From Liolophura sinensis (taxonomy: Eukaryota > Mollusca > Polyplacophora > Chitonida > Chitonidae), in NCBI RefSeq assembly GCF_032854445.1, contig NC_088300.1, forward strand, positions 79,647,084 through 79,711,083: DNA of 64,000 nt, read 5' to 3'. The notes under the pieces are model-generated. The model searched no databases. It was given only the letters and a program-made list of their open reading frames with translations, and was not told the DNA's origin. Below, piece after piece: positions 4,530-63,990 of this stretch (position 1 is its first letter; each line of letters starts with the position of its first letter). Position numbers and translations under genes: made by a program.

Positions 4530-5540
4530 CAGAATGTTCATGCTTATAGCATACCCCTGGTATGTTCATGTTTACCGCACGCGCCCAGCATGGTCATGTT
4601 TATCGCATGTGATTGGTATGTACAGGTTTACTGCACGCATCTATTATGTTCATGTTTACCGCACGCGCCCAGTATGGTCATGCTTACTGCATGCACACAG
4701 TATGTTCATGAAAATCGCACGCAACCAGTATGTTCATGTTAAGCGCACGTGTCCAATATGTTCATGTTTACCGCACGTGTCCAGTTATGTTCATGTTTGC
4801 CGCAAATGCCCAGTTATGTTCATGTTTGCCGCAAATGCCCAGTTATGTTCATGTTTACTGCTCATGTCCAGTTATGTTCATCTTTAACGCAAATGCCCAG
4901 TTATGTTCATGTTTGCCGCAAATGCCCAGTTATGTTCATGTTTACTGCTCATGTCCAGTTATGTTCATGTTTACCGCAAATGTCCAGTTATGTTCATGTT
5001 TATTGCAAATGTCCAGTTATGTTCATGTTTACCGCTCATGTCCAGTTATGTTCATGTTTACTGCACATGTCCAGTTATGTTCATGTTTACCGCAAATGCC
5101 CAGGTATGTTCATTTTTACCGCACATATCCAGTTATATTCATGTTTACCGCACATGCCCAATATGTTTATGTTTATAGCATGCGTCTGGTGTGTACATGT
5201 TTACTGCAAATGACCAATGAGTTCATGTTAACTGCACGCGACCAATATGTTCATGTTTACCGCACGGTACGAGTATGTTCATGTTTTCCGCACGTTTCCA
5301 GTATGTTCATGTTTACCGCACGGGCCCAACACATTCATGTTTACTACACGCGCCCAATACGTTCATGTTTACCGCACGTTTCTAGTATGTTCATGTTTAC
5401 CACACGCGCCCAATACGTTCATGTTTACCGCGCGTTTCCAATATTTTCATGTTTATTGCACGCGCTTAATACGTTCGTTTTTACTGCACGTTTCCAGTAT
5501 GTTCATGTTTATCTCATTATGTTCATGTTTATTGCATATA
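4530..5540. repeat. 29-bp minisatellite, ~34 copies
   Basis: Units of 29 bp carry tatgttcatgtttaccgca followed by a variable end (cgtgtccag, aatgcccag and so on). Because 29 is not a multiple of 3 and units lack stops, all three forward frames stay open with an apparent 29-residue period. The long open frames here (up to 279 codons) are a consequence of the repeat, not evidence of a protein. Confidence 0.95.
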
Positions 5541-5714
5541 TTTTTTATTTGCTCATGCGGTTTTACTAACCTCTTTTTTCAAATTAACGGCCGCTGCGCA
5601 ATGGAACACGTTCGTCTGCAAATCGAAATGTTGCTAACATTCCATTCTCTTGATTGATGGTAAGTAAATTTGACGAGCAGGTACATTACATGAACAAAAG
5701 AGTAAGATAAGTTA

Positions 5715-6390
5715 ACAATCCTACTCAGGTAGCCTCACAATCCTACTCAGGTTGGTTCACAATCCAACTCAGGTAGCGTCAGAATCCTGCTCAGGTAGCC
5801 TCACGATCCTCCTCAGCTATTCTCCCAATCCTGCTCAATTAGACACACCATCCTGTTAAGCCAGCCTCACCACCCTACTCAGGTAGCATCACAATCCTGC
5901 TCAGGTAACCTCACGATCCTGCTCAGGTAGCCTCACAGTCCTGCTCTGGTAGTTCACGACACACGATCCTGCTCAGATAGTCTCACATTCCTGCTCAGGT
6001 AGTCTTACACTCCTGCTCAGGTAGTCTTACACTCCTGCTCAGGTAGTCTTACGATCCTCCTCAGGTAGTCTCACGCTCCAGTTCAGGCAGCTTCACAGTC
6101 CTGCTCAGGTAGTCTCACAATCCTGCTCAGGCAGCCTCGCAATCCGGCTCAGGCAGCCTCACAACCCTGCTCAGGTAGCCTCACAATCCTGCTCAGGTAG
6201 CCTCAGTGTCCTGCTCAGGTAGCCTCACAATCCTGTTCAAGCAGCCTCACCATAATGCTCAGGAAAACACAAGATCCTGCTCAGGTAGTCTCACACTCCT
6301 GCTTAGATAGTCTCACAATCCTGCTCAGGTAGACACACGATCATCCTCAGGTAGCCTCACAATCCTGCTCAGGTAGACAACCGATCCTGC
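5715..6390. repeat. 22-bp minisatellite, ~30 copies
   Basis: Tandem 22-bp units contain tcctgctcaggtagcctcac with frequent substitutions, so this array is older or less homogenised than its neighbours. Each unit contains ctcag|gtag, a weak donor-like string; no exon is evident beside it. Confidence 0.9.
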
Positions 6391-7394
6391 GTACAGCTGT
6401 TCGACTTTCTGATGCACTAATCTAATATGACATGCTATATTCATCTATGGTAGTAAATCTGTCAGACGAAGCCGTATGCCTGGAGCAATTGACACACGAT
6501 CATAACAACATAGTGTCATTTAGAATAAATGAATTATGACGCTTTACGCAGTATTTAAGCCATATTGTGGAAAATCAATGTTTAGAAAATGATAATTACA
6601 TGCTTATCTTACATACATATATACATGTGTATCAGTCCGGGGCTTCATTGTGTTAATATGCCGATAAACAGGCGTACTACGGAAGGTGCAGTTGAACCTT
6701 GGTGTAAATGTTTTAGCATTGTATCGTAGTATTAGGTCATAGCCTTAGTAAACTGTGGAAATTTCTTATTCTGGCATCACGTGATAGTACACATCGCTAT
6801 ATTTATATAACCTATATATACAAGTGTGTGCAAGGAAAGGAAGCCAAATACATGTATGAAATGATGTTACTCTGTATGGCCTCTGAACCACTTTCATATA
6901 CTTAAGCTGTAGAAATAGAATCAGATTGAAAGATGAGTTGAGGATATTCTAACTGGAGAGGAACGTTCGAAAACTCCTGTAAGAATCCATCTACACTATA
7001 AGCTTATATTTTGTATGATCGTCCATAACTTATTTTCTACTAGTCAATCATACCGAATCATATAATCAACATGTTTGTGAGACAGCTAAACTTAATCTCA
7101 TTTTTCAGACAGGTCACTTCACGTGGTCGTAATACGTATATGCAAATGGTCGTAATACATTTATGCAAAAACCTTGCATGCTATCTTCTGCTTGTAAGCC
7201 TTTGAAGTATGACACAGGTCTAAAATAAGTGATATTTTGAGAGTCTGTATACATACTGTCAGACCAGTTCGACCTATATATTCCCAATTATTGGCAACAC
7301 ACTTCCATAATTTGTCGGATTTGCCAAAATGTTATTATATAATATGCATACATGTAGAACTCTGTAAACAATACTCACACCGTATAACTATGTA
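6391..7394. other. No gene seen
   Basis: Unique AT-rich sequence between two minisatellites. No coding exon, RNA gene or mobile element end was recognised on either strand. Confidence 0.6.
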
Positions 7395-24913: not shown

Positions 24914-27559
24914 CTGGCAGTCTGAGGGGAAACAGGGTGTATATAGACCAGGACAACGCGGGACGCGTTCTCACGTAGGATGGGCAAGCTGACGTGAGCA
25001 GGGATTGTCTGTTCTGTTGAAGCGAGACGTAGACGAACGGTAGGAGAAGTACGCTGATACCGTCCAAAAGGTGTTTCCTTTAATTAAGCCCCAACTATTA
25101 TATGGTTGTTTAAAACATATCTGTGCATAAAAGAATAGATATAGACGTGACTGGATCAATCACAGAGCGGGGTCAGGTTAACACCCATGGGTCTGAAGGT
25201 GTTAAGTGAGCTATAGCAACAGACCAGGTATAGGGTTCATACCAGAGCTCAGTCACTAATGTTACCAGTTAGAATTATAGTGTCAACAAGTCCAACACAA
25301 TCTAACGGTTGTCTGTCGCCCGCTACATATCCTACGTAATCATCCTCATAATGGATATGTGTTCACATGATAATACATCATGTGAACTGGGCTTAACCAT
25401 CCTGTATAGTTTAAACATAAGAAAGCGTCATCCCATCGTTTCATATTTATACATGAATTCTGTGATTTGTTTTCTCGTGTTACCATTACTAAAGCATACT
25501 ATATTGATAACGTTCCGTAATGACAGAGACCAAAAATCTCATTATTCCAAACGAATCTCAAACAATTTCAATTTGACTTGGCAATATCTTCTCCTTTACT
25601 TTATGATCATGAATGCAGCCGGGTCTAGAGTTCGGGGTTAAAGTTGTTACTAGACTGAAAACACCGAGCATTTTTGTGTAAGGCTGTATATTGCATTTGC
25701 CGTTGTCTAGAATGTTGTTATGGACGCTGATAGAGTTCAGTTGCCATCATCTCGATTTGCCATGACTCAAATTTGCGTAAATTTGATATAGTACACGCAT
25801 AAGGTTGAAAACGTTCACTTGCCATCTCGCTATCTATGTCTCCTCAAAAACTGTACCTGAATTCGAGATTTTACAAGTATATGGCTGAAAACGTTTACTT
25901 GCCATATCGCTTCTCGACCTCCTCAAAACTCTTCGTAAATTGGCCTCATAGCTAAATATGTGTACTTGTTATCTCAAAGCGCTCCGTGAACGCGACGCGT
26001 AGTATGCCTGAAAACAAACACCAGAGCACGCTATCACATGCAGGTGCGACAAACATTAAATACACACACGAAAATTTAGCCTGCTTGCAGTAAGCTTTAT
26101 TGTAGCATATTTTCATCGTTTGGGAGCATGTACATGGGTAAGCCTCTACCGGTTTCCGTTTTCCCACCATGTCGCGAGATCACAACTGAACGCTCAATCG
26201 ATTGTTTCTTTATTATCCGTTTATGGGCAATTGATCCAAATTCATATACATCGTAACTTTGAAAAGCAAAGCTCATATGTCACCACATTTTTGTGATTTT
26301 AAAATTGTTCTATATTTTCAGTGTGAGAAGTATTTTTTTTATGACTCTTTAGGTGAGCTTTAATTGATTGCAACGTTCGCAATTTTGTATAAACTTGTGA
26401 TGCAACCTGTGGAGCTGACATCGACCATGTCTGGTGCATTATCTCTGAACACTGACTTGCCTTTAACCAGATGACTGTTATATACAATACTTGACTCGTG
26501 GGGAAATCTTTAGGTGATAAATAGAACAGGTGTGGTTAGTTGGCATTGTTTGTCAGGTTTAGTTACAACAACCAGAACTGGAAATGGTACAATTTATGTT
26601 CTACTTTAATTTGTTGACTTGTAAACATGTGATGATTACACACTTGTTCAATGAGCAATAAGGGATATGTCACATGTTCCAAGCTAAACATGCAATATAT
26701 CACAATCTAGTTTATCTGTTATGTAAAGCAATTTAAATGATTTATTCTATTGAGGTTATGTTAATAACTTCTGATGTTAAGATAATATTCTTCCGTTTTA
26801 ATGGTGTTCTTAAAAAACACAAAAAGTTGACTAAGAGATGGCTGTGTTTTCGTCACATATCTGTATATGTATTTGCCATTTATCCACAGACGTTTCTTTC
26901 TCTATTCAGAACGGAACTATCAAGGAAATGCTCCCTTGTAAACTGTTCCACTATGTATTTGTTGCCATTTACTTGTTGTAAGGTGTAGTAACTTTTATGG
27001 GCTATGACAAGAGTTATCTGGCGTCTGATCCAGGCTCTGTGGACATTCCAAATGTAGCATTGCCTCAATACACATGCATGTATACACGCCTCTATGTTAA
27101 ACTTCACCATGACAATCACTTCCTAAAAAGGCGTCTTAATTGTAGGGACTAAATATGGCTACCGCTATTTCACTGGGGTCCCCATCTTGTTACAATGGCT
27201 ATTTTTGTTATTTTCTTGGTAAAATGTATTTTTTATTTTGTTAATATTTGCTAACTTTGCTTGTATATATGCAGTGAAGTGACCACAGTGGTACGAATCC
27301 GAAACCGACATAAGTCCGCCGTACGAGAGATTGAGTTGTCTCTGGTATGCTCTTCATACTTATGCCTGCATATTCAAGATCATCCACAACTTTTTACATA
27401 TCAGCCAAAGCATTCAAATTGTACGTGTCCCTAGTGAGTAGTTCGTCATTATGGCACAGTACAGTAACCCATTGTTATGGGAATGTTGGATCGAGGCCAT
27501 CTTGTTCATGCCTTCATGCGTTATATTGTAGATCTTCCGGACAGAAGATCTAGTCGTGC
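24914..27559. other. No gene seen
   Basis: The first part (to perhaps 25,200) is probably 3'-untranslated sequence of the fucosyltransferase; it contains a ~45-bp near-duplicate of the last coding bases (ggacgcgttctcacg occurs in the exon and again at about 24960). Around 25700-25960 a cgttcacttgccat motif recurs. The remainder is AT-rich unique sequence; open frames at 25309-25641 and 26737-26988 have no recognisable domain. Confidence 0.5.
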
Positions 27560-29030
27560 ACAAGGCATTCCATATAGTAATGACATTTGTAACCTTCTGG
27601 CTGTGGCAGAATTTCTAGCCATTCAGGAAGCATTCCATATAGTACCGGGATTCCTCTCCTCCTCGCTATATTTGGTATTTCAGCCCTGCACGAGGCATTT
27701 TACGCAGTAATTGCACTTCTCACCTAGCTATTGCAGTATTTCCAGCCTTGCACGAGAGATTCCATACTGTGACGGTATTGCTCACTTCCTCCTTACTTAA
27801 GGCAGAATTTCTAGCCATGCGCGAGGCATTCCATACAGTAACGGCATAGCTCACCCCCACCCTAAGGCAGAATTTCCTGCCCTTGCATGAGACATTACAT
27901 ACTGTAATGGAATTGCGCACCACCTCCCTAAGGCAGAATCTCCTGCCTTGCATGAGACATTACATACTGTAATGGAATTGCGCACCACCGCCCTAAGGCA
28001 GAATCTCCAGCTCTGTATGAGACATTCCAAACAGTAACGGCATTGCTCACGTCCTCTCAAAGGCACAATTCCCAGCTCTGCATGAGACATTCCATACAGT
28101 AACAGCATTGCTCACCTCCTCCCTAAGGCAGAATTTCAAGCCATGTGCGAGCCATTCCATACAGTCACGGCATTGCTCACCTCCTCCCGAAGGCAGAATT
28201 CCAGCTCCGGACGAGACATTCCATACAGTGACGACATTGCTCACCTCCTCCCTAAGGCAGAATTTCCAGCTCTGCACGATACATTCCATACAGTGACGAC
28301 ATGCTCACCTCTTCCCTAAGGCAGAATTTCCAGCTCTGCACGATACATTCCATACATTAACGGCATTGCTCATCCCCTCCCTAAGGCAGAATTTCGAGCC
28401 ATTCCGTACAGTGACGGCATCGCTCACCTCCTCCCTAAGGCAGAATTCCCAGCTCCGGACGAGACATTCCATACAGTGACGACATTGCTCACCTCCTCCC
28501 TAAGGCAGAATTTCGAGCCATTCCGTACAGTGACGGCATCGCTCACCTCCTCCCTAAGGCAGAATTCCCAGCTCCGGACGAGACATTCCATACAGTGACG
28601 ACATTGCTCATCTCCTCCCTAAGGCAGAATTTCGAGCCATTCCATACAGTGACGGCATCGCTCACCTCCTCCCAAAGGCAGAATTCCCAGCTCCGGACGA
28701 GACATTCCATACAGTGACGACATTGCTCACCTCCTCCCTAAGGCAGAATTTCGAGCCATTCCATACAGTAACGGCATTCCTCACCTCCTCCCTAATGCAG
28801 AATTTCCAGTCATGTGCGAGGCATTCCATACAGTAACGGTATTGCTCATCTCCTCCCTAATGCAGAATTTCCAGTCATGTGCGAGGCATTCCATACAGTA
28901 ACGGTATTGCTCACCTCCTTCCTAAGGCAGAATTTCTTGACCTTACATAAGACATTCCATACAGTAACGACATTGCTCATCTCCTCGCGTAGGCAGAATT
29001 TCCAGCCTTACAAGAGGCATTCCATGCTTG
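27560..29030. repeat. ~65-bp minisatellite, ~22 copies, with 121-bp higher-order block
   Basis: Units contain cattccatacagtaacggca, ttgctcacctcctccctaag and gcagaatttccagctctgca. Between about 28390 and 28770 a 121-bp block (one full unit plus a shortened unit lacking the ctctgcacgaga part) repeats three times, showing block duplication. Minus-strand open frames here are repeat artefacts. Confidence 0.93.
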
Positions 29031-50076: not shown

Positions 50077-50138
50077 TCAGTCAGATTTTAATACAGTGGT
50101 GAACAGTAGTGTCTCCAGGCCTGTTCCCAGGGCAATAC
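50077..50138 (-). CDS. CLN3: CLN3/battenin homologue, terminal coding exon
   Basis: On the minus strand, after a ttctgtctgcag acceptor, this exon completes a glycine codon and reads IALGTGLETLLFTTVLKSD followed by TGA (50079-50077). Human CLN3 ends TLGISLSGLLGLP..., so TLG-IALG is the expected continuation of exon 50491-50656 in matching phase 1. CLN3 is a multi-pass lysosomal/late-endosomal membrane protein, defective in juvenile Batten disease. The C terminus is more diverged than the preceding exon and was found only by joining the splice phases, so confidence is slightly lower. Confidence 0.8.
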
Positions 50139-50490: not shown

Positions 50491-50656
50491 CCAGTGTCAC
50501 AAACAAGGCAGCCAGGTTGACACACAGCTCCCTGTCCCTGGGTGGATACTTCTCCTCATTTAGAAGCAGATAGAATATATTAACATAGGAGGCGCCACCT
50601 AAAAGTCCCACATAGATCATCAATGCTGGCAGCAGATACACTGGAATGAACTTGTA
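50491..50656 (-). CDS. CLN3: CLN3/battenin homologue, penultimate exon
   Basis: The 166-bp exon sits on the minus strand between a strong acceptor (tttttttttcag, exon starts at 50656) and a gtaagg donor at 50490. It encodes YKFIPVYLLPALMIYVGLLG followed by GASYVNIFYLLLN, then a RELCVNLAALFVTLG end. The GLLGGA(S/A)YVN block is the hallmark of the last part of CLN3; human CLN3 has YEGLLGGAAYVNTF at the same place. Starts in phase 0, ends in phase 1. The segment contains the last predicted membrane helix pair. No stops or shifts. Confidence 0.92.
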
Positions 50657-50811
50657 CTGAAAAAAAAACAGGATTGGTCAGTAACGCCTTTTTATATACA
50701 TTCAGTACGAATAATGAGGAGTGTAACCCCCTTTTGCATATGGTATAGTCAGAATAATAAGTTGCCAGTATATAAGGAATGTCTACATACCACTTAAAAT
50801 AGATGATAATC

Positions 50812-51192
50812 TGCTAAGACAAGAGAAGAGAGCTGTGTGCACTCACATGGACATCTATGATCCACGCAACCATGGTCACTAATATGGTGAGACAAGAGAA
50901 GAGAGATCTGTGCACTCACATGGACATCTGTGATCCACACAATCATGGTCACTAATATGGTGAGACAAGAGAAGAGAGCCCTGTGCACTCACATGGGCAT
51001 CCCTGATCCACACAACCATGGTCACTAATATGGTGAGACAAGAGAAGAGAGCCCTGTGTACTCACATGGGCATCCCTGATCCGCACAACCATGGTCACTA
51101 ATATGGTGAGACAAGAGAAGAGAGCCCTGTGCACTCACATAGGCATCCCTGATCCACACAACCATGATCACTAATATGGTGAGGCAAGAGAA
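50812..51192 (-). repeat. 73-bp array derived from CLN3 exon end, distal part
   Basis: About five 73-bp units like those at 57061-58768. They are the far end of the same array, now separated from the rest by the LINE. Each unit on the minus strand holds tggttgtgtggatcacagat (exon-derived) followed by gtccat|gtgagt. The last 15 bases (51178-51192) form one copy of the LINE target duplication. Confidence 0.93.
51178..51192 (-). repeat. LINE target-site duplication, 3' side
   Basis: ggtgaggcaagagaa. The ggc variant (other units mostly read gagac) is shared only with the copy at 57061-57075, so the two derive from the same original unit. Confidence 0.93.
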
Positions 51193-51563
51193 TGAATGAA
51201 TGAATAATTATGGTTTAACGCCACATCGGCAGTATTTCAGCCATATCGTGGCGAGAGGAAGGTCGAAACACGAGGCGGTTGAGGTTTCCGATATGGTGGT
51301 GAGAACATTAAAAATGGAAACAAATGTTTGGACATGTTTAAAACCAGATTAGAATAACCAAAAACAGTTAAAACTCGAAAACCCTCATATTTTAAAAATA
51401 ATATATCAAGAAATGTATATATAACATTATAGATAAATATTTATATATTAATAAATTATATCTTGTGATAAATATTTATATATTAATAAATTATATCTTA
51501 TGATAAAGGCCAATGGCCTTCAAATAATTGATGACAACATCGCCAGCGATGTTGTCAAACAAA

Positions 51564-54500
51564 TCATATGTAGAGTCGACCGTGTAGAATCTCTGCCGAA
51601 CGTGGGCAGTCTACACAGTCAACCAAGATATGTTTGATGCTATATTGGGCATCGCATCCAACGCACTCGGGAGCACTGCTCCCATCTAGTATGAAATTGT
51701 GCGTTAGACGAGAATGCCCAACACGACACCTTGTTAAAACTACTTGGTCTCTACGAGACTTTTCGCAAGTATAATTGTTGTAGCCAATGACCGGATGAAT
51801 AGCATGCAGTTTATTATGGACCTGCAAGTTCCATTCACCCTGCCAAAGGCAACGAATATATTTAAGAATATTGGTCTTTATGTCAGTATAAGGGATTTTT
51901 ATCTTAGATATGGGTTTATTTGGGGCAGCTTTCGCCTCCCTGTCTGCGACTGTGTTTCCATGGATACCAATATGACTTGGTATCCAGCAGAATATAATAT
52001 TTTTACCTCTTCTAATTAGTTTCCTATGTATGGCTAAAATTTGAAGGATCAATGGATTTTTAAATTAATTATTCTGTATTGCCAATAAGAAAGACGAGTT
52101 AGTGCATATCATTGCCCTCTGGGCACACCCAGAAGAAACATATGATAAGGCCAGGAGTATAGCTCTGGCCTCAGCAGAGAATATTGAAGAAGAGGATGAA
52201 AGACGAAAGGAAGAGACCCGCTGCTCCAGGACAGCCGCAGTCGCAACCCTGTCCCCATCCTTCGACCCGTCAGTATATATAAATTTATAATCCATATAAT
52301 TAGCTTTAATTTCAGCAAAACCTTGCTGAATTATAAGAGAATTTATATTCCATTTATTATATTTACGTAGATCAAATATTAGTTTAGGTTGTGGGAGAAG
52401 CCATGGAGGAGACTCCGGAAAAGAAACCGGAGCTATATCTTCCTTCTTGATGTTAGCTCCCACAATATGGTCCTGTATACGAAGACCGAACGAAGGGATC
52501 TTGTTAGGACATTTAGTATATTTGTCTACATACAATGGATTGAAAACACAGTCGTAGGCAGGGTTTGTTGGATGTGCTTTAAGCTTTGTAGCATATTGAA
52601 GGCTAAGTTTTATACGTCGGTTATATAAAGAAGGCTCATTTGCCTCCACGTATTAACTTTCTACTGGTGAGGTTCTAAAAGCACCAAGGCTGAGCCTCAA
52701 ACCTTGGTGATGAACAGGATCCAACATTTTAATGTACGACTTCCTAGCGGAACCGTAAATGATGGATCCATAGTCCAATTTAGACCTCACCAGAGAACGA
52801 TATAAATTAAGTAAAACTGATCGGTCAGCACCCCAATCGGTGCTAGACACGACCTTAATTATATCCAGAGCCTTTGAACATTTAGCTTTAAGCATTTTAA
52901 TATGAGGTATAAAAGATAGCTTACTATCAAATATTATACCTAAAAATTTTGTTTCTCCAACAATTTTAACCTGTTCACCACAAACATTAAGCTCAGGGTC
53001 AAGATGAAGTTTCCGTTTATTACAAAAATGCATACCGACGGTTTTAGACGTTGAAAATCTAAAACCGTTTTCAGTTGCCCATTTCTCCATCTTATTGAGA
53101 CAAAGCTGCCACTGACGTTCGATATTATTCATATTCTTAGCTCGGTAGCATATAAGGAAATCATCCACGTATAAAGAACCCCCTGTGCCAGATGTTAATG
53201 TTTTTGCTAGGCTATTTATTTTTATGCTGAACAGAGTTGGTGATAGAATGCTGCCCTGGGGTACACCCATTTCCTGCTCATAAGGGTCAGAAAGAGTGGA
53301 ACCCATCCGTACCTTAAACTGACGATCAGATAAGAATTGGGATATAAATATAGGTAAGCGACCTTTTAGACCCATATTAGCGAGATCTTTTAAAACACCA
53401 TATTTCCATGTGGCGTCGTAGGCCTTTTCAAGGTCAAAAAATATGGACACCACATGTTCATTATTGATGAAGCCATCGCGAATAAAAGTTTCGAATCGAA
53501 CAAGGTGATCCATGGTAGATCTACCTTGCCGAAAACCGCATTGAATATTAGATAAAAGCTTGTTGGTTTCAAGAAACCAAACAAGTCTATCATTAATCAT
53601 CCGTTCCATAGTCTTACAGACACAGCTGGTAAGAGCTACGGGACGGTAATTATTTGGATCAGTATGATCCTTACCCGGTTTGGGAACCGGAATAATACAC
53701 GCCTCCCTCCATGATGGTGGAAAATTACCAGTTATCCAAATATCATTAAGCAAGTCCAGGAGAGTCTCCAGTGGCTCAGGTGGTAAATGGTTCAGAAACT
53801 TATAATATACATTATCAGGACCACAGGCAGTATCGTGGGCCCTTTTTAATGCAGTTTTAAGTTCCTCGATATTAAAAGGATGATTATAATCTTCTAAATT
53901 CTTAGAAGAAAAGGGCAATTTAATTTTCTCCTCCTTTAATACGTTGGAATTCTTTAGAGTAATTCTCATCAGAAGATTTGTTTGAAATTGTTTCAGCTAG
54001 TTTATTTGCTATATCGGGTGGAGAAGTTAAAATATTATCTCCATCTTTTAAATGCTGAACTTTTGCTTTATTATTTCTGAACCATGTTCCAGACCTTACG
54101 CATGGGTGTTTTTGACGTAATGCCTGAAACAAAGTTCCGCCAACAAGATCGTCTCTTGGACTTGAGTAATCGACGAGCCTTAGCTCTAAAAATACGAACC
54201 TGGTTTAAGTTATTATCAGTAGGACATATACTAAAATTTCGCTCGGCCTTTTTGCGGTCTTTAATGGCTTTGCGACAGTCCTTATCATACCAGGGTTTGC
54301 TTTTGGATTTTGGATTTGTCGAGGTTTTAGGGATAGTTCTATCGGCAGCTCGTAATACAAGCTCGTTAAATTTTAATATAGGATCATTTGTTGCATTGAG
54401 AGTCTCTGAAAAGATATCAGCCTCGCAGAACATCTCAAATGCGATCCAATTTGCTTTATCGAATTTCCACCTAGCTACACGTTCTAAAGAATTAGAAGTG

Positions 54501-55128
54501 ATATGCTCTAGGATAATAGGAAAATGGTCACTGCCACAAAGATCGTCATGTACCTTCCAAGGAAAATCTGGGAGAAGTGATGGATCTGTGATAGTGAGAT
54601 CGATAGCAGAATAAGTGCCATTACCCGGATGTAAATAGGTATTAGAACCATCATTGAAATAACACAGTTCTTCCTTACATAAGAAGTCTTCGACTATCTT
54701 GCCCTTATTATTTATGTTATTACTGCCCCATAGAGGGTTATGGGAATTAAAATCTCCCATTATAATAAACGGTTTAGGTAATTATTCTGTAAGATTATGT
54801 AACTGAGAAGCTGACAAAGAAGTGTTTTAGACAGTGAAATACGAACGGCCACAGTCTGAAGCTCTATATGCAGAGCAACAGGGCTGTGGATAATACTGTT
54901 ATTAATGAATATCAAGGAGCCGCCTGCAGCTCGCTCTTCTTCATTTGAATAAGTACTATATAATGAAGAATTTTTAAGGGCTACTTTGTTTTTGTCAGAT
55001 GTCTTCAGGTGAGTTTCCTGAAGACATAGGGCTACTGGATTTAAAGATTGAACTAGCTGTGTTATTTCAATAAAATTTACCTTAAGGCCTCGACAATTCC
55101 ATTGCATAATTTTGTCATATATCGCCAT
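51564..55128 (-). pseudogene. LINE ORF2 (APE endonuclease - RT - RNase H), broken
   Basis: Endonuclease: MQWNCRG, CLQETHL (55128-54760 frame), then MGDFNSHNPLWG and GSDHFPI (54760-54071). RT (53969-52653): FFDLEKAYD, GVPQGSILSP and the catalytic LYVDD (about 53174-53160). RNase H: IYTDGSKDG and SAEARAI (52649-52065), then HGNTVADREAK and a CxxC...HxxxxC end (52052-51564). Defects: a small deletion with frame change and a TAA (54784-54782) before MGDFN, frame shifts near 54071-54132 and near 53920-53970, a TAA at 52655-52653, and a stop near 52065. The usual RNase H aspartate in the FTDS block reads CTNSS here. The start overlaps the ORF1 stop by one base (TAATG). Confidence 0.9.
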
Positions 55129-56459
55129 TATGGAGGAAGACGTATTGGGGATTTATGTCTTGACCGAGGACGACCCTTTTTGGGAGATCTACTAGGAGAT
55201 CTCCCAGGTGCAGATGATGTATCCATCAGGTCTGCACATGAAGTTGAAGGATCGACATCCTCCAACGATCCAAACTTATTATAAGTTTGGATTGGGTCCC
55301 TAGTGGCCTTAGAGGGACGCTCCAGGGGGCCACTAGGTTTATCCTTTTTATGATTTTTCTCAGGTTTATTTTTGTCACCCGTTGTTTTCTGTGAAGAATC
55401 AACGGGTTTATTAGATTTAGATTTATTATCACATGAAGTGTGGTCAGATAAAGAAAGTGCTGGATATTCAGGTAAAGTATTAGGTATTTTAGATGGGTTG
55501 ATATCAGTCTGAGATGATGAGCTGGCTGTCTTATTTATGGGTTTCGTGACGAGTTTCTGTGGCTGTTCTTTGTCAATGGGCGAAGTAAAAGTTGTTTGGA
55601 CCCCCACAGAAACAGTGGTTTTCCTTACAACGTTGGCAAAAGTAGATGTTGTAAGGCCATGCGTGACAGAGACCATACGCTTCGCTTCCTGATAGGATAT
55701 ATTATTTTTACATTTTAAGGTTATAATTTCTTTTTCTTTTTTGAAAAGAGGGCAGTCCTTGGAAGAGGCCATGTGGGCTCCGCTACAATTGAAACATTTT
55801 ATTGTTTTTGTGCAGTCAAATCCCTCATGTCCTGCTTCCGCACATCTAAAGCAGACCAGTGTGTTGCGGCATTGACTCCTGCCAACGGTTTGGCCATGGC
55901 AGGAGTCACACCGGGTGGGGTTAGGTATAAACAACTCCACTCGTACGCTATACGGTCCGACAAATGTAGATGACGGAAGGGAAGGTCTGTTAAAAGTTAT
56001 CATATAAGTGTTCGTTTTTATCAGGTTTCCATCTCTTTTTATTATGAAGCGTTTGACCTTAATCACTCCTTGATGTTTAAGTTCTTCAGTTATTTCTTGC
56101 TCTGTCATTTCAGTAAGGTCCTGGTCTCTGTCACGAATTATTCCATGACAGCAGTTCAATGTATTATGTGGAGAAACAGAAACAGGCTGCTCTCCTATAT
56201 TTTGAATTTTTAGTAAATTTATATATTGTTGTTTTCTGGAAACTTCCAACAAAATGTTCCCAGATTTCATTTCTTTGACTTGTTTCAGAGTTCCAGCATA
56301 ACTTTCTAACGTTTTTTTTTTAAGTACAAATGGATTTATTTTCATTTTGCCTTCATTTTTATTAGATATTACTAAGAAGGTATTTTCTCTTTCAATATCT
56401 AATGGAACTTCATTTTTTCTTTTCTTAGCAACGACTGTTGTAATTTCAGAAGAAGCCAT
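55128..56459 (-). CDS. LINE ORF1, gag-like protein with CCHC zinc knuckles
   Basis: Intact 443-codon open frame, ATG 56459 to TAA ending at 55128. The N-terminal half (about 25-165) has an RRM-like pattern. Three closely spaced cysteine-rich knuckles follow at about 184-236: CDSCHGQTVGRSQC, CFRCAEAGHEGFDC (canonical CX2CX4HX4C) and CFNCSGAHMASSKDC. Then comes the ISYQEAKRMV segment typical of I/Nimb ORF1. The C-terminal 150 residues are Ser/Lys/Pro-rich and basic. It would bind element RNA as a nucleoprotein. Intactness of ORF1 beside a broken ORF2 suggests a fairly recent insertion. Confidence 0.92.
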   Translation of the reverse strand: MASSEITTVVAKKRKNEVPLDIERENTFLVISNKNEGKMKINPFVLKKKTLESYAGTLKQVKEMKSGNILLEVSRKQQYINLLKIQNIGEQPVSVSPHNTLNCCHGIIRDRDQDLTEMTEQEITEELKHQGVIKVKRFIIKRDGNLIKTNTYMITFNRPSLPSSTFVGPYSVRVELFIPNPTRCDSCHGQTVGRSQCRNTLVCFRCAEAGHEGFDCTKTIKCFNCSGAHMASSKDCPLFKKEKEIITLKCKNNISYQEAKRMVSVTHGLTTSTFANVVRKTTVSVGVQTTFTSPIDKEQPQKLVTKPINKTASSSSQTDINPSKIPNTLPEYPALSLSDHTSCDNKSKSNKPVDSSQKTTGDKNKPEKNHKKDKPSGPLERPSKATRDPIQTYNKFGSLEDVDPSTSCADLMDTSSAPGRSPSRSPKKGRPRSRHKSPIRLPP

Positions 56460-57060
56460 GTTATATTTTATTTAATTTCACCCTGCGTGTCCCCCACCCA
56501 CCACGGAGTGCCAACAAGGGCGAATCTACCTCTGCGGATGACCAGCAGAGAATAAAAACAGGGAATCCACGCAAGGTATACTCGAACAGATTGAGTTATA
56601 CCAAAAGGTTAAATTCAATCTACTCGATTGACCCATTAGCCACCGCCTTCTGCATTGACCCCAAAGGAAGTGCTGTTGAAGAAGAGCCAACTTGACATCT
56701 CGGTAAGACAAAGAATAACAAACGGGATCAAGTGTAGGGCTAGACATGACCAGCCGATTGATCGGACCGGGCCCATCCGACCTCCCGTCTCTCTCCAAGT
56801 AAGGGCCAAAGTGACGTGTTGGGCTTGAGGATCTCGCAAGACCAACACACCCTCAGCCACAGGATCCCGTCCTCGGAGATTACGGGTCGCAACCCACGGC
56901 AAACAGGTCGCTTCCCGGTTGCCTCTCACACAACCGAGAAGATGTGAGCCTATTATATTCACCGGGCTCACACAGGAGAGCTCTAGGTTAGTCGACTTTT
57001 ACGACAAGCTTGCCTAGAGGGCTGAGGTCCTATTCTTATCACCCCGGAAACCCCACGGGG
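56460..57060 (-). promoter_or_regulatory. LINE 5' UTR
   Basis: The 600-bp leader before ORF1 runs to the junction with the target duplication at 57061. Internal promoters are known for I-type LINEs, so transcription signals probably lie here, but no specific element was identified. Confidence 0.6.
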
Positions 57061-57075
57061 GGTGAGGCAAGAGAA
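57061..57075 (-). repeat. LINE target-site duplication, 5' side
   Basis: ggtgaggcaagagaa, identical to 51178-51192, directly abutting the LINE 5' end at 57060. Confidence 0.93.
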
Positions 57076-58768
57076 GAGAGCCGTGTGCACTCACATGGAC
57101 ATCCGTGATCCACACAACCATGGTCACAAATATGATGAGACAAGAGAAGAGAGCTCTGTGCACTCACATGGACATCTGTGATCCACACAACCATGGTCAC
57201 TAATATGGTGAGACAAGAGAAGAGAGCTCTGTGCACTCACATGGACATTCGTAATCCACACAACCATGGTCACTAATATGATGAGACAAGAGAGCCCTGT
57301 GCACTCACATGAACATCTGTGATCCACACAACCATGGTCACTAATATGGTGAGATAAGAGAAGAGAGCCCTGTGCACTCACATGGACATCTGTGATCCAC
57401 ACAACCATGCTCACTAATATGGTGAGACAAGAGAAGAGAGCCCTGTGCACTCACATGAACATCTGTGATCCACACAACCATGGTCACTAATATGATGAGA
57501 CAAGAGAAGAGAGCCCTATACACTCACATGAACATCCCTGATCCACACAACCATGGTCACTAATATCGTGAGACAAGACAAGCTAGCCCTGTGCACTCAC
57601 ATGGACAGCCGTGATCCACACAACCATGGTCACTAATATGATGAGACAAGAGAAGAGAGCCCTATACACTCACATGGACATCTGTGATCCACACAACCAT
57701 GGTCACAAATATGATGAGACAAGAGAAGAGAGCCCTGTGAACTCACATGGACATCTGTGATCCACACAACCATGGTCACTAATATGGTGAGACAAAAGAA
57801 GAAAGCCCTGTGCACTCACATGGACATTCGTAATCCACACAACCATGGTCACTAATATGATGAGACAAGAGAAGAGAGCCCGGTGCACTCACATGGACAT
57901 CTGTGATCCACACAACCATGGTCACTAATATCGTGAGACAAGAGAAGAGAGCCCTGTGCACTCACATGAACATCCCTGATCCACACAACCATGGTCACTA
58001 ATATCGTGAGACAAGACAAGCTAGCCCTGTGCACTCACATGAACATCTGTGATCCACACAACCATGGTCACTAATATGGTGAGATAAGAGAAGAGAGCCC
58101 TGTACACTCATATGGACATCAGTGATCCACACAACCATGGTCACTAATATCGTGAGACAAGAGAAGAGAGCCCTGTACACTCACATGGACATCTGTGATC
58201 CACACAACCATGGTCACTAATATCGTGAGACAAGACAAGCTAGCCCTGTGCACTCACATGAACATCTGTGATCCACACAACCATGGTCACTAATATGGTG
58301 AGATAAGAGAAGAGAGCCCTGTGCACTCACATGGACATCTGTGATCCACACAACCATGGTCACTAATATGGTGAGACAAGAGAAGAGAGCTCTGCGCACT
58401 CACATGGACATCTCTCATCCACACAACCATGACCACTACTATGGAGAGACAAGAGAAGATAGCTCTGTGCACTCACATGGACATCTGTGATCCACGCAAC
58501 CATGGTCACTAATATCGTGAGACAAGAGAAGATAGCTCTGTGCACTCATTTGAACATCCCTGATCCACACAACCATGGTCACTAATATGGTGAGACAAGA
58601 GAAGAGAGCCCTGTGCACTCACATGGACATCTGTGATCCACACAACCATGACCACTAATATGGTGAGACAAGAGAAGAGAGCTCTGCGCACTCACATGGA
58701 CATCTCTCATCCACACAACCATGACCACTACTATGGAGAGACAAGAGAAGATAGCTCTGTGCACTCAC
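57061..58768 (-). repeat. 73-bp array derived from the end of a CLN3 exon and its donor
   Basis: About 23 units of 73 bp. On the minus strand each carries a copy of the last ~28 bases of exon 58769-58879 (atggttgtgtggatcacaga + tgtccat) followed by the 5' splice site gtgagt and ~40 bp of intron. The proximal unit is the true exon end, so the array grew out of a functional exon-intron boundary. Every unit thus offers an exact copy of the donor. Minus-strand open frames of about 60 codons recur every 73 bp and are by-products. Confidence 0.95.
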
Positions 58769-58879
58769 ATGGACATCCGTGATCCACACAACCATGTTGA
58801 TTAATTGCAGTGCTGAGAGGACATCTACTCTGCGAATCTGAACCAGCTGCACTGAGGACCGAGACACAAAAACTCCAGC
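58769..58879 (-). CDS. CLN3: CLN3/battenin homologue, third-from-last exon
   Basis: The 111-bp (37-codon) exon is phase 0 at both ends. After tatgactttag it reads AGVFVSRSSVQLVQIRRVDV, then LSALQLINMVVWITDVH, then gtgagt. Human CLN3 has QAGVFASRSSL at the same position, followed by a hydrophobic helix; the next exon here continues YKFIPVYLLP. The GVFxSRSS block is a strong CLN3 signature. Its 3' third has been amplified into the adjoining 73-bp array. If a second donor were used instead, 73 nt would be added and the frame would be lost. Confidence 0.93.
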
Positions 58880-58896
58880 CTAAAGTCATAACAAAA

Positions 58897-59154
58897 CAAA
58901 TTTATTGATTTATCTGATTGGTGTTTTATGCTGTACTCAAGAATATTTCACTTATACGACGGCGGCCAGCATTATGGTGGGAGAAAACCAGGCAGAGCCC
59001 GGCAAAAACCCACGACCATCCGCAGGTTGTTGGCACACCTTCTCATATACGGCCAGAGAGGAAGCCAGAATGAGCTGGACTTGAGCTCACAGCGACTGCA
59101 TTGGTGAGAGGCTTTTGGGTCATTACGCTGCGCTGGCGCACTAACCAGCATAAA
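58897..59154 (-). mobile_element. tRNA-derived SINE, first family, inside the CLN3 intron
   Basis: Tail at the left (aaatttattgatttat), then ggtgttttatgctgtactca, gaatatttcacttatacgac, ggcggccagcattatggtgg and a head ending gctgcgctggcgcactaacc at about 59153. The first ~20 bases of the tRNA head are missing. It lies between two CLN3 exons in the gene's sense orientation and abuts a truncated copy of the 129-bp exon array. Confidence 0.88.
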
Positions 59155-60028
59155 GTTCTGGACAGTCATGATTGTACTCCTGCGGAGCTCTGACTTAGGC
59201 AGCACACACTCTGGTCACATACTCAAACAGATACGCTGTATATGTATCACATACCTGATAGCAGAACTGTAGAGCAGTATAAAGTTCTGGACAGCCATGA
59301 TTGTACTCCTGCAGAGCTCTGACTTAGGCAGCACACGCTCTGGTCACATACTCAAACAGATACACTGTATATGTATCACATACCTGATAGCAGAACTGTA
59401 GAGCAGCATAAAGTTCTGGACAGTCATGATTGTACTCCTGCGGAGGTCTGACTTAGGCAGCACACACTCTGGTCACATACTCAAACAGATACACTGTATA
59501 TGTATCACATACCTGATAGCAGAACTGTAGAGCAACATAAAGTTCTGGACAGCCATGATTGTACTCCTGCGGAGGTCTGACTTAGGCAGCACACACTCTG
59601 GTTACATACTCAAACAGATACACTGTATATGTATCACATACCTGATAGCAGAACTGTAGAGCAGCATAAAGTTCTGGACAGTCATGATTGTACTCCTGCG
59701 GAGGTCTGACTTAGGCAGCACACGCTCTGGTCACATACTCAAACAGATACACTGTATATGTATCACATACCTGATAGCAGAAATGTAGAGCAGCATAAAG
59801 TTCTGGACAGTCATGGTTGTACTCCTGCAGAGCTCTGACTTTGGCAGCACACACTCTGGCTACATACTCAAACAGATACACTGTATTTGTATCACATACC
59901 TGATAGCAGAACTGTAGAGCAACATAAAGTTCTGGACAGTCATGATTGTACTCCTGCGGTGGTCTGACTTAGGCAGCACACTCTCTGGTCACATACTCAA
60001 ACAGATACACTGTATATGTATCACATAC
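59155..60028 (-). repeat. CLN3: 129-bp array: tandem copies of a CLN3 exon
   Basis: Seven further copies of the exon at 60029-60138, at 129-bp spacing: 59900-60009, 59771-59880, 59642-59751, 59513-59622, 59384-59493, 59255-59364 and a truncated one to 59235. Each unit is the whole 110-bp exon plus a 19-bp spacer that begins GT and ends AG (gtatgtgatacatatacag). All copies checked except 59771-59880 have AAA changed to TAA in the reading frame (plus gacttagg instead of gactttgg). The copy at 59771-59880 stays open and still encodes a CLN3-like segment (VYLFEYVARVCAAKVRALQE...). Confidence 0.95.
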
Positions 60029-60138
60029 CTGATAGCAGAACTGTAGAGCAGCATAAAGTTCTGGACAGCCATGATTGTACTCCTGTGGAGGTCTGACTTT
60101 GGCAGCGCATGCTCTGGCTACATACTCAAACAGATACA
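60029..60138 (-). CDS. CLN3: CLN3/battenin homologue, fourth-from-last exon
   Basis: The 110-bp exon follows a ttctttcttgatagatgtctgcag region and ends at cag|gtatgt. A G from the upstream exon completes valine (phase 1 entry, phase 0 exit), giving VYLFEYVARACAAKVRPPQE, then YNHGCPELYAALQFCYQ, continuous with AGVFVSRSS of the next exon. Human CLN3 reads VVYFAEYF...YQAGVF in this place. Of the eight tandem copies this is the most upstream in the gene, the only one with a pyrimidine-rich acceptor, and has an open frame, so I take it as the working exon. Upstream exons were not recognised within the window and should lie to its right. Confidence 0.9.
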
Positions 60139-60298
60139 CTGCAGACATCTATCAAGAAAGAACAGCCAATCAATACAGCCACATGCATATTTGATTCAGT
60201 GGTTCTTCGGACACTTGGGCATGTGTTTAGAACATAAACTGCAAAGCTACCATCTAATTAACAATGAAAGGCATGACAATGAGCAATACAAATTAAAC
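60139..60298 (-). other. CLN3 intron, unique part
   Basis: Short unique stretch between the exon acceptor and the 32-bp array. No exon was recognised here. Confidence 0.6.
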
Positions 60299-62215
60299 AG
60301 AATACACTCACCAACAGACCTGTGTCCTCAACAATACACACACCAACAGACCTGTGTCCTCAACAATACACACACCAACAGACCTGTGCCCTCAACAATA
60401 CACACACAAACAGACCTGTGTCCTCAACAATACACTCACCAACAGGCCGGTGTCCTCAACAATACACTTACCAACAGACCTGTGTCCTCAACAATACACT
60501 TACCAACAGGCCGGTGTCCTCAACAATACACTTACCAACAGGCCGGTGTCCTCAGCAATACACGTACCAACAGGCCTGTGTCCTCAACAATACACATACC
60601 AACACGCCTGTGTCCTCAACAATACACTCACCAACAAGCCTGTGTCCCCAACAATTCATTCACCAATAGACCTGTGTCAACAACAATACACTCACCAACA
60701 GACCTGTGTCCTCAACAATACACCCACCAACAGACCTGTGTCCTCAACAACACACCCACCAGCAGACCTGTGTCCTCAACAATACACTCACCAACAGATC
60801 TGTGTCCTCAACAATACACTCACCAACAGGCCTGTGTCCTCAACAATACACTCACCAACACGCCTGTGTCCCCAGCAATTCATTCCCCAACAGACCTGTG
60901 TCCTCAACATTACACTCACCAACAAGCCTGTGTCCTCAACAATAAACTCACCAACAAGCCAGTGTCCTCAAAAATAGACTCACCAACAAGCCTGTGTCTT
61001 CAACAATACATGCACAAACAGACCTATCTCCTCAACAATACACTCACCAACAGACCTGTTTCCTCAAAAATACACTCACCAACAAGCCTGTGTCCTCAAC
61101 AATACACCAACCAACAGACCTGTGTCCTCAACAATTCACTCACCAACAGACCTGTGTCCTCAACAATACACTCACCAACAAACCTGTGTCCCCAACAATA
61201 CAATCCACTGATCGGTTCTGGTCAATACACCCACTAACAGACCTGTGTCCTCAACAATACACTCACAAACAGACCTGTGTCCCCAACAATACACTCACCA
61301 ACAGGCCGGTGTCCTCAACAATACACTCACCAATAGACCTGTGTTCCCAACAATACACTCACCAACAAGCCTGTGTCCTCAACAATACACTCACCAACAG
61401 ACCTGTGTCAACAACAATACACTCACCAACAGACCTGTGTCCTCATCCACTGATCTGTTTTGGTCAATACACCCACTAACAGACCTGTGTCCTCAACAAT
61501 ACACTCACCAATAGACCTGTGTCCCCAGTAATACACTCATCAACAGGCCTGTGTCCTCAACAATACACTCACCAATAGGCCTGTGTCCTCAACAATACAC
61601 TCACCAACAGACCTGTGTCCTCAACAATACACCCACCAACAGACCTGTGTCCTCAACAACACACCCACCAGCAGCCCTGTGTACTCAACAATACACCCAC
61701 CAACAGATCTGTCTCCTGCACAATACACCCACCAACAGTCCTATGTCCTGTACATTACAACCACCAGCAGACCTGTGTCCTCAACAATACACTCACCCAT
61801 AGACCTGTGTCCTCAATAATACACTCACCAACAGACCTGTGTCCTCAACAATGCACTCACCAATAGACCTGTCCTGTACAATAATCCACTAACACACCTG
61901 TCTTATACAATACACCCACCAACAGCCCTGTGTCCTCAACAATACACCCACCAACAGATCTGTCCTGTACAATACACTCACCCACACACCTGTCCTGTAC
62001 AATACACCCACAAACAGATCTGTTACCTGTACAATACACCCACCAACAGCCCTGTGTCCTGTACAATACAACCACCAACATCCCTGTGTGCTGCACAATA
62101 CACTCACCAGTAGACCTGTCCTGTACAATACACTCACCTACGGACCTGCCCTGTACAACACACTCGCAAACTACAGTGTCCAGTACAATACACCCACAAA
62201 CTATCCAATGTCCCA
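60299..62215. repeat. 32-bp minisatellite, ~60 copies
   Basis: Units of acctgtgtcctcaacaatac + actcaccaacag. On the minus strand (CLN3 sense) nearly every unit has ttg|gtgagt. A ~246-bp higher-order repeat is marked by the odd unit cactgatcggttctgg at 61207 and cactgatctgttttgg near 61457. Towards the right edge units diverge (cctgtacaatacacccacaa). A plus-strand open frame of 388 codons (60071-61237) is a repeat artefact. Confidence 0.95.
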
Positions 62216-62523
62216 AACAATTACATGTAGTACCTCCTGCTTTCTCCAGTTTTTACAAAGGAGTTGAGACATTTCTAATGAAACTATTGCTTTAACCATG
62301 ATACAAAAACTGGAATTACAACAAGAAAAATAACTTTGCTCAGGCACTTATATTGAAGTTGATTTTTGACCTTTCTCTAAAACCATAATGGCTATACCTA
62401 AATAACTCATTTTTTAAATATTTCAAAAAATTGAAAATGGTGTACTTACATTTAAGGCAAGCCAAAGAATAAGTTTTAAACACCTGATATATCTGTGACA
62501 TCTGCTCTCCTCTATCACCTCTG
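62216..62523. other. Unique spacer between two arrays
   Basis: About 300 bp with no recognised CLN3 exon. On the minus strand a 32-codon open frame near 62200-62300 has no match to CLN3. Confidence 0.5.
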
Positions 62524-63990
62524 AGTCATCTGTAAACACCACCAAATACATCCCCAATCACTTATCTTACAAGTATGTGCCATATGTGAACACCACCAAA
62601 TACATCCCCAATCACTTATCTTACAACTCTCCGCCATATGTGAACACCACCAAATACATCCTCAATCACTTATCTTACAATTCTGTGCCATCTGTGAACA
62701 CCACCAAATACATCCCCAATCACTTATCTTACAAGTCTGTGCCATATGTGAACACCATCAAATACATCCCCAATCACTTTATCTTACAAGTCTGTGCCAT
62801 ATGTGAACACCACCAAATACATCCCCAATCTTTCATCTTACAATTCTGTGCCATCTGTGAACACCATCAAATACATCCCCAATCACTTACCTTACAATTC
62901 TGTGACATCTGTGAACACCACCAAATACATCCCCAATCACTTACCTTACAATTCTGTGACATCTGTGAACACCACCAAATACATCCCCAATCACTTACCT
63001 TACAATTCTGTGCCATCTGTGAATACAACCAAATATATCCCCAATCACTTATCTTACAAGTCTATGCCATATGTGAACACCACCAAATACATCCCCAATC
63101 ACTTATCTTACAAGTCTGTGCCATATGTGAACACCATCAAATACATCCCCAATCACTTTGTCTTACAACTCTATGCCATATGTGAACACCACCAAATACA
63201 TCCCCAATCACTTATCTTACAACTCTGTGCCATCTGTGAACACCATCAAATACATCCTCAATCACTTATCTTACAATTCTGTGCCATCTGTGAACACCAC
63301 CAAATACATCCCCAATCACTTATCTTACAAGTCTGTGCCATATGTGAACACCATCAAATACATCCCCAATCACTTTATCTTACAAATCTGTGCCATATGT
63401 GAACACCACCAAATACATCCCCAATCACTTTATCTTACAACTCTGTGCCATCTGTGAACACCATCAAATACATCCCCAATCACTTACCTTACAATTCTGT
63501 GACATCTGTGAACACCATCAAATACATCACCAATTACTTACCTTACAATTCTGTGACATCTGTGAACACCACCAAATACATCACCAATCACTTACCTTAC
63601 AATTCTGTGCCATCTGTGAACACCACCAATTTACATCCCCTATCACCTACATGTACATGTAACAATTTGTGAACAACACTCTACTGTTGCTACATCCCCA
63701 TTCACCTATCTTACAGCACTATGCCATCTTTAAATGACACCAAATATATCCCCACTGACATATCTTACAACATTATGCTGTCTAAGAATTACACTAGCTA
63801 CATCACCAATCACCTATATGTATTTAAAAGACTATGCCATCTATAAACGAAACCAAATACATCACCAATTACCTATGTTACAACACTACGCCATCTGTGA
63901 ACACCACCACATACGTCCCCAACCATCTATGTTACAACACTATGCCATCTGTAAAGAACACAAACTACATCCCCGTTACAGCCAGCATTT
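62524..63990. repeat. 54-bp minisatellite, ~25 copies
   Basis: Units of gccatctgtgaacaccacca + aatacatccccaatcactta + ccttacaattctgt. Regular to about 63650, then increasingly diverged to the window edge. On the minus strand each unit contains acag|atggcacagaatt|gtaagat, that is acceptor-like and donor-like strings. Long plus-strand open frames (202 codons) are repeat artefacts. Confidence 0.93.

Follow-up and report, generated by a model that had tools for sequence, protein, structure and literature searches.

The window analysed here, 64,000 nucleotides of the chiton Liolophura sinensis lying about 2.8 Mb from the end of contig C6, carries exons 9 to 13 of a CLN3 gene on its minus strand. 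The genome paper names the species Liolophura japonica (PMC11068029), which was later corrected to L. sinensis. Based on a genome search with PF02487 and a further 20 kb of C6 sequence beyond the window, the gene was modelled with 13 coding exons encoding 385 aa, in frame and with no internal stop, and all 12 introns are of the GT...AG type. In the window, the model places exon 9 at 62450-62529, exon 10 at 60029-60148, exon 11 at 58769-58879 (PF02487 match at 58763-58885), exon 12 at 50491-50656 (PF02487 match at 50501-50659) and exon 13 with the stop codon at 50077-50138. The 385-aa product aligned to PF02487 in one stretch (residues 10-373 to profile positions 3-384; E 1.2e-54, 186 bits), and no PDB match was found for it at E 0.01. 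The gene is apparently intact. The PF02487 search also located a second CLN3 locus at C7:28238873-28246457.

Within this gene, TRF and a listing of the copies uncovered a tandem array at 59146-60141 (minus strand), with a period of 129 bp, 7.7 copies and 94% matches. Among the best-scoring candidates of a genome search, it occurs at a single place in the genome. On the minus strand, seven full units, each with 110 nt of exon-like sequence followed by a spacer GTATGT...ACAG, are accompanied by a partial copy of 82 nt; the spacer is 19 nt long in all seven cases. Set against the gene model, the array repeats the 3' part of exon 10 (110-113 nt), its donor and 16-19 nt of intron 10. A first-pass annotation had described eight copies of a complete 110-bp CLN3 exon. 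The 129-bp steps, the 19-nt GT...AG spacers and the expansion of CLN3 exon sequence into a minisatellite were all recovered, but the eighth copy is only the partial one, and the repeated block is not a whole exon. The authentic exon 10 is 120 nt long (60148-60029), in phase 0 at both ends, with the acceptor ttctttcttgatag|ATG and the donor CAG|GTATGT, and the PF02487 alignment runs through it; its acceptor lies 10 nt upstream of the start given before, and the AG at 60139 is internal to the exon. The assignment to CLN3 holds for the assembled 385-aa product but not for the 36-aa exon-10 peptide alone, which matched no Pfam family and no PDB chain, and the longer read-through stretch gave a single chance match against Pfam, below the cut-off (UCR_hinge, E 0.37).

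Because the true acceptor lies outside the repeated unit, the unit carries a donor without an acceptor. The AG ending each spacer belongs to a 3-bp CAG match to exon-internal sequence, and 6-7 of the 14 positions from -5 to -18 are pyrimidines at the spacer AGs, compared to 11 of 14 at the exon 10 acceptor. With no true acceptor in the unit, the copies are not exons with mini-introns and would be unable to compete as exons, both of which had been proposed. The accompanying remark that the spacer is too short to be an intron is correct, 19 nt being too short for a spliceosomal intron. Moreover, exon 9 ends in phase 0, so that an mRNA entering copy 1 at the AG at 60139 would meet a stop at codon 7, and entry into any of the other seven copies at a spacer AG would have the same outcome.

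Copies 2-8 (59154-60009, minus strand) are non-coding in the model. A TAA was found in copies 2 and 4-8, that is, in six of the seven extra copies, in agreement with the earlier statement that most copies carry one; copy 1 (60029-60138) and copy 3 (59771-59880) are open. Of 110 positions compared with copy 1, nine are different in copy 3, a divergence close to that of copy 2 (10) and copy 7 (9). That this internal copy is open had been noticed correctly, but no route from it into a productive mRNA was found, as its own AG leads to the stop at codon 7 and read-through would place it behind the TAA of copy 2. Read-through from the true acceptor does stay in frame as had been predicted, ending at the copy 2 TAA after 59 aa. 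The donors of copies 1-7 are seven identical CAG|GTATGTGA sites, the same over 12 nt, and the donor is thus intact in all six full decoy copies. With read-through halted by the copy 2 TAA, and TAA present in copies 4-8 as well, only one donor of the seven would give CLN3. Copies 2-8 thus appear to have no protein-coding role. Of the 1149 nt of intron 10, the array occupies 875 nt; the rest is, by eye, mostly a SINE-like element at 58900-59153 (minus strand, limits by eye), which lies between the array and exon 11 and stops some 20 nt short of the exon 11 acceptor. Stretches resembling this element were also met at other places examined.

Four more junctions of the C6 gene are spanned by tandem repeats: the exon 4 donor (two copies), the exon 8 acceptor (47 bp), the exon 9 acceptor (54 bp) and the exon 11 donor (73 bp). 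The 54-bp array (26.7 copies, 62520-63974, minus strand) includes 10 nt of exon 9. The 73-bp array (23.8 copies, 57061-58796, minus strand) includes 28 nt of exon 11 and crosses its donor, ..CCAT|GTGAGTGC; a second block of the same repeat (5.2 copies, 50817-51192, minus strand) is separated from the first by about 5.9 kb of other sequence at 51193-57060. The same 15 bp (GGTGAGGCAAGAGAA) flank this segment on both sides, so that the segment resembles a mobile element inserted with duplication of its target site. A 32-bp array in intron 9 (60301-62148, minus strand) touches no exon; its gene strand contains 29 GTGAGT motifs, and the opposite strand has none. Elsewhere in the window, a 65-bp array at 27557-29025 has a minus-strand unit with GGAG|GTGAGC and is possibly another donor array. 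Tandem repeats with a period of at least 10 make up 28% of the window, as against 0-32% of the 17 SLC6 loci described below and 2% at the second CLN3 locus.

We surveyed exon edges in 27 other loci, which were chosen and not drawn at random: 17 SLC6 loci (PF00209) picked by several exon matches within 10 kb, nine myosin loci and the second CLN3 locus. The SLC6 exon intervals were reduced from 143 to 120 by removing 22 as repeat copies or doubtful (13 in L012, five in L015, two in L010 and one each in L019 and L013) and merging two pieces in L009; together with both CLN3 genes, this gave 141 intervals. Each exon edge was compared with 2 kb of the adjoining intron at a threshold of at least 30 bits. 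Direct repeats were detected at 11 of 140 donor sides and 7 of 140 acceptor sides, all 18 of which hold a real splice site on reading, and no inverted repeat was detected on these sides at the same threshold. Without the C6 gene, 13 of 256 sides have direct repeats. When the probes were taken from the HMM cores only, direct matches were found for 9 of 83 and an inverted match for 1 of 83 at 30 bits, and the inverted one (in L018) disappeared with edge probes. For the myosin replicate, the criteria were set before the sequences were fetched, and none of its 72 intervals was dropped. Six of 142 sides reached at least 30 bits, of which five were accepted, the match in L022 (71% over 56 nt) being judged a chance one and left uncounted; inverted repeats were found at none of the 142 sides.

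In total, 18 of 398 exon sides in 14 of the 27 loci have such repeats outside the C6 gene, counted on the intron side as searched and not all independent, as there are kindred arrays among the SLC6 loci. With the C6 gene included, the splice-spanning repeats amount to 16 at donors and seven at acceptors, and 15 of 28 loci have at least one. An array confined to the C6 CLN3 gene is ruled out by the repeats at exon edges of other loci. The first-pass annotation took the array as a repeat captured at an essential lysosomal gene; an array does lie in CLN3, but these 18 sides and the four further C6 junctions show that such arrays are restricted neither to CLN3 nor to lysosomal genes. The second CLN3 gene (C7:28238000-28247999) has its own donor-spanning repeat (55 bp, 3.8 copies) at a different exon. 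Donor arrays lie at the homologous exon end in four SLC6 loci (L005, L010, L015 and L019). The arrays of L010 and L019, two neighbouring loci on C8, resemble each other, lie at the same exon and look related, and the others may be independent. In a further SLC6 locus, L012, an 87-bp unit that spans a donor is repeated about 30 times (4631-7299); most of its decoy donors have lost GT, and 9 of 30 are intact.

The positions of TRF arrays with a period of at least 20, excluding the second block of the 73-bp repeat, were compared with the uniform placement of one unit in a gene whose arrays had been collapsed. In the SLC6 and both CLN3 genes, 17 of 41 arrays span a junction compared to 2.66 expected, and in the SLC6 genes alone 11 of 28 compared to 2.02, in a test that takes arrays as independent and exons as complete, neither of which holds. 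The myosin genes alone gave 4 of 25 compared to 1.85 (P 0.098), which is in the predicted direction and not significant. For all loci but C6, 16 of 54 arrays span a junction compared to 3.96 expected, and none of 400,000 draws was as high. The excess was seen both for arrays with at least five copies (9 of 33, 2.42 expected, P 2.3e-4) and for those with fewer than five (7 of 21, 1.54 expected, P 3.2e-4), although low-copy repeats may remain visible longer where one copy is a conserved exon. In the C6 gene without the 129-bp array, 4 of 11 arrays span a junction compared to 0.42 expected. Together, these data indicate a likely excess of arrays at junctions in the sampled genes. We tentatively suggest, without favouring it over other accounts, that splice junctions of this chiton are preferred birthplaces of minisatellites, where a mutational process tied to the boundary, for example one linked to transcription or splicing, might repeatedly duplicate exon ends together with their splice sites, leaving several per cent of exon edges beside decoy arrays that the spliceosome must ignore.

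Signs of function in the copies were looked for across the spanning units. Their periods show no frame preference, and copies serving as in-frame protein repeats are ruled out, as only 6 of 21 spanning periods are divisible by three. Over the 23 junctions, 140 of 174 decoy donors are intact compared to 139.9 expected from other dinucleotides, a comparison that rests on few arrays and in which L012 goes the opposite way. Decoy acceptors are intact in 35 of 44 cases compared to 28.8 expected. Intact counts are not below the dinucleotide expectation, and no selection against decoy splice motifs was seen.

We are highly confident in the anatomy of array and gene proposed here, and the 129-bp array is very probably a minisatellite of the kind called a mirage, spanning a splice junction in a working CLN3 gene, with decoy copies 2-8 predicted to be spliced out with intron 10. 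In this scheme, a segment that began 10 nt into exon 10 and ended 19 nt into intron 10 would have undergone tandem duplication, with a 3-bp CAG match at the new joint. This CAG alone is common to the upstream flank of copy 1 and the spacer ends, so that position +19 of intron 10 was probably joined to position +10 of exon 10 there. Expansion to about eight copies, lying in intron 10, would have followed. Exon 9 would then be joined to copy 1, which has the only good acceptor, and use of the copy 1 donor would remove copies 2-8 with the intron. The choice of that donor over six identical ones downstream probably follows a first-donor rule, the copy 1 donor being preferred as the one met first downstream of the acceptor.

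The main alternative is that several of the seven donors are used, the longer mRNAs ending at the copy 2 TAA and being degraded, so that array length tunes CLN3 output. The identity of the donors over 12 nt would permit this, and downstream repeat units do serve as donors in human IFI6 (PMC4526556). We nevertheless regard it as unlikely, as the spanning units show no frame preference, donor motifs are retained no more than other dinucleotides, and the amphioxus repeats are described as leaving splicing undisturbed (PMC3087553, PMC3902484). Mutually exclusive or competing exon copies, as first proposed, could appeal to the open frames of copies 1 and 3, but the frame has already largely refuted them: the copies have no acceptor of their own, all eight meet a stop at codon 7 when entered at the pyrimidine-poor spacer AGs, and six of the seven extra ones contain TAA, which makes this reading barely tenable.

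Two further explanations concern the reality of the array and the standing of the gene. Arrays are error-prone in assemblies, and one misassembled mirage has been reported (PMC3087553), yet an artefact is very improbable here, given that the array of about 1 kb is short relative to the mean HiFi read of 8.3 kb at 14x (PMC11068029), that its copies differ among themselves and that similar arrays occur in 15 of 28 loci. The array might also be junk in a dying gene, the C6 copy being a decaying paralog, in view of the second CLN3 locus on C7 and the divergent C6 protein. Against this stand the 13 exons in frame without a stop, the PF02487 score of 186 bits and the presence of like repeats in conserved SLC6 and myosin genes, and we consider decay improbable. 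Splicing of copies 2-8 out of a working gene remains our preferred reading.

Several known systems resemble the chiton array in part. In intron gain by tandem genomic duplication (the Rogers model), a segment with a splice signal is likewise duplicated (PMC3087553), but a new intron arises there, whereas here none is seen and an intron already present is lengthened by the duplication. Internal tandem repeats in human segmental duplications also include minisatellites at exon-intron boundaries; these differ from one recent paralog to another and are able to give rise to introns, and a junction bias is not among the results in the part of that report available to us (PMC2812944). Human IFI6 (6-16, G1P3) has a minisatellite at an exon end whose units include splice donors, as here, and some of these donors are used, giving three mRNAs (PMC4526556). 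The chiton donors are known here from sequence. The unit is 129 bp long in this chiton and about 12 bp in IFI6.

The closest counterparts are the amphioxus mirages in Adh3, troponin C, the globins BflGb6 and BflGb9, and PGBD5, which are tandem repeats of 10-160 bp units over 5' and 3' exon-intron boundaries, with intact coding sequence, many copies with AG/GT, intact splicing and variable length (PMC3087553, PMC3902484). By its structure, the 129-bp array is such a mirage. The boundary is spanned likewise, each unit holding 110-113 nt of exon 10, the donor and 16-19 nt of intron; the coding sequence is intact likewise, with an open frame of 385 aa; splice signals are kept likewise (140 of 174 donors and 35 of 44 acceptors over 23 junctions); and both boundary types and several genes are involved likewise (16 donors and 7 acceptors, 15 of 28 loci). 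Splicing and length instability were shown in amphioxus, where mirages are marked by polymorphic length and somatic instability, whereas the chiton array is known here from the assembly. Furthermore, mirages were described in cephalochordates, while the present ones are in a mollusc, at up to five junctions in one gene; a limited search of the open-access literature found no report of such repeats in a mollusc. The kind of repeat is therefore already known, and what is new is the phylum, the number per gene, the sampled frequency and the placement test. Amphioxus mirages have so far been described gene by gene; that a mollusc has them too, at 18 of the 398 exon sides sampled, suggests either a phenomenon widespread in animals or more than one origin. 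The chiton genome supplies numerous examples in which the selection of one splice site from among identical nearby ones can be studied, and should the excess over random placement prove to be genome-wide, it would indicate an unexplained mutational process that connects tandem duplication with exon-intron boundaries.
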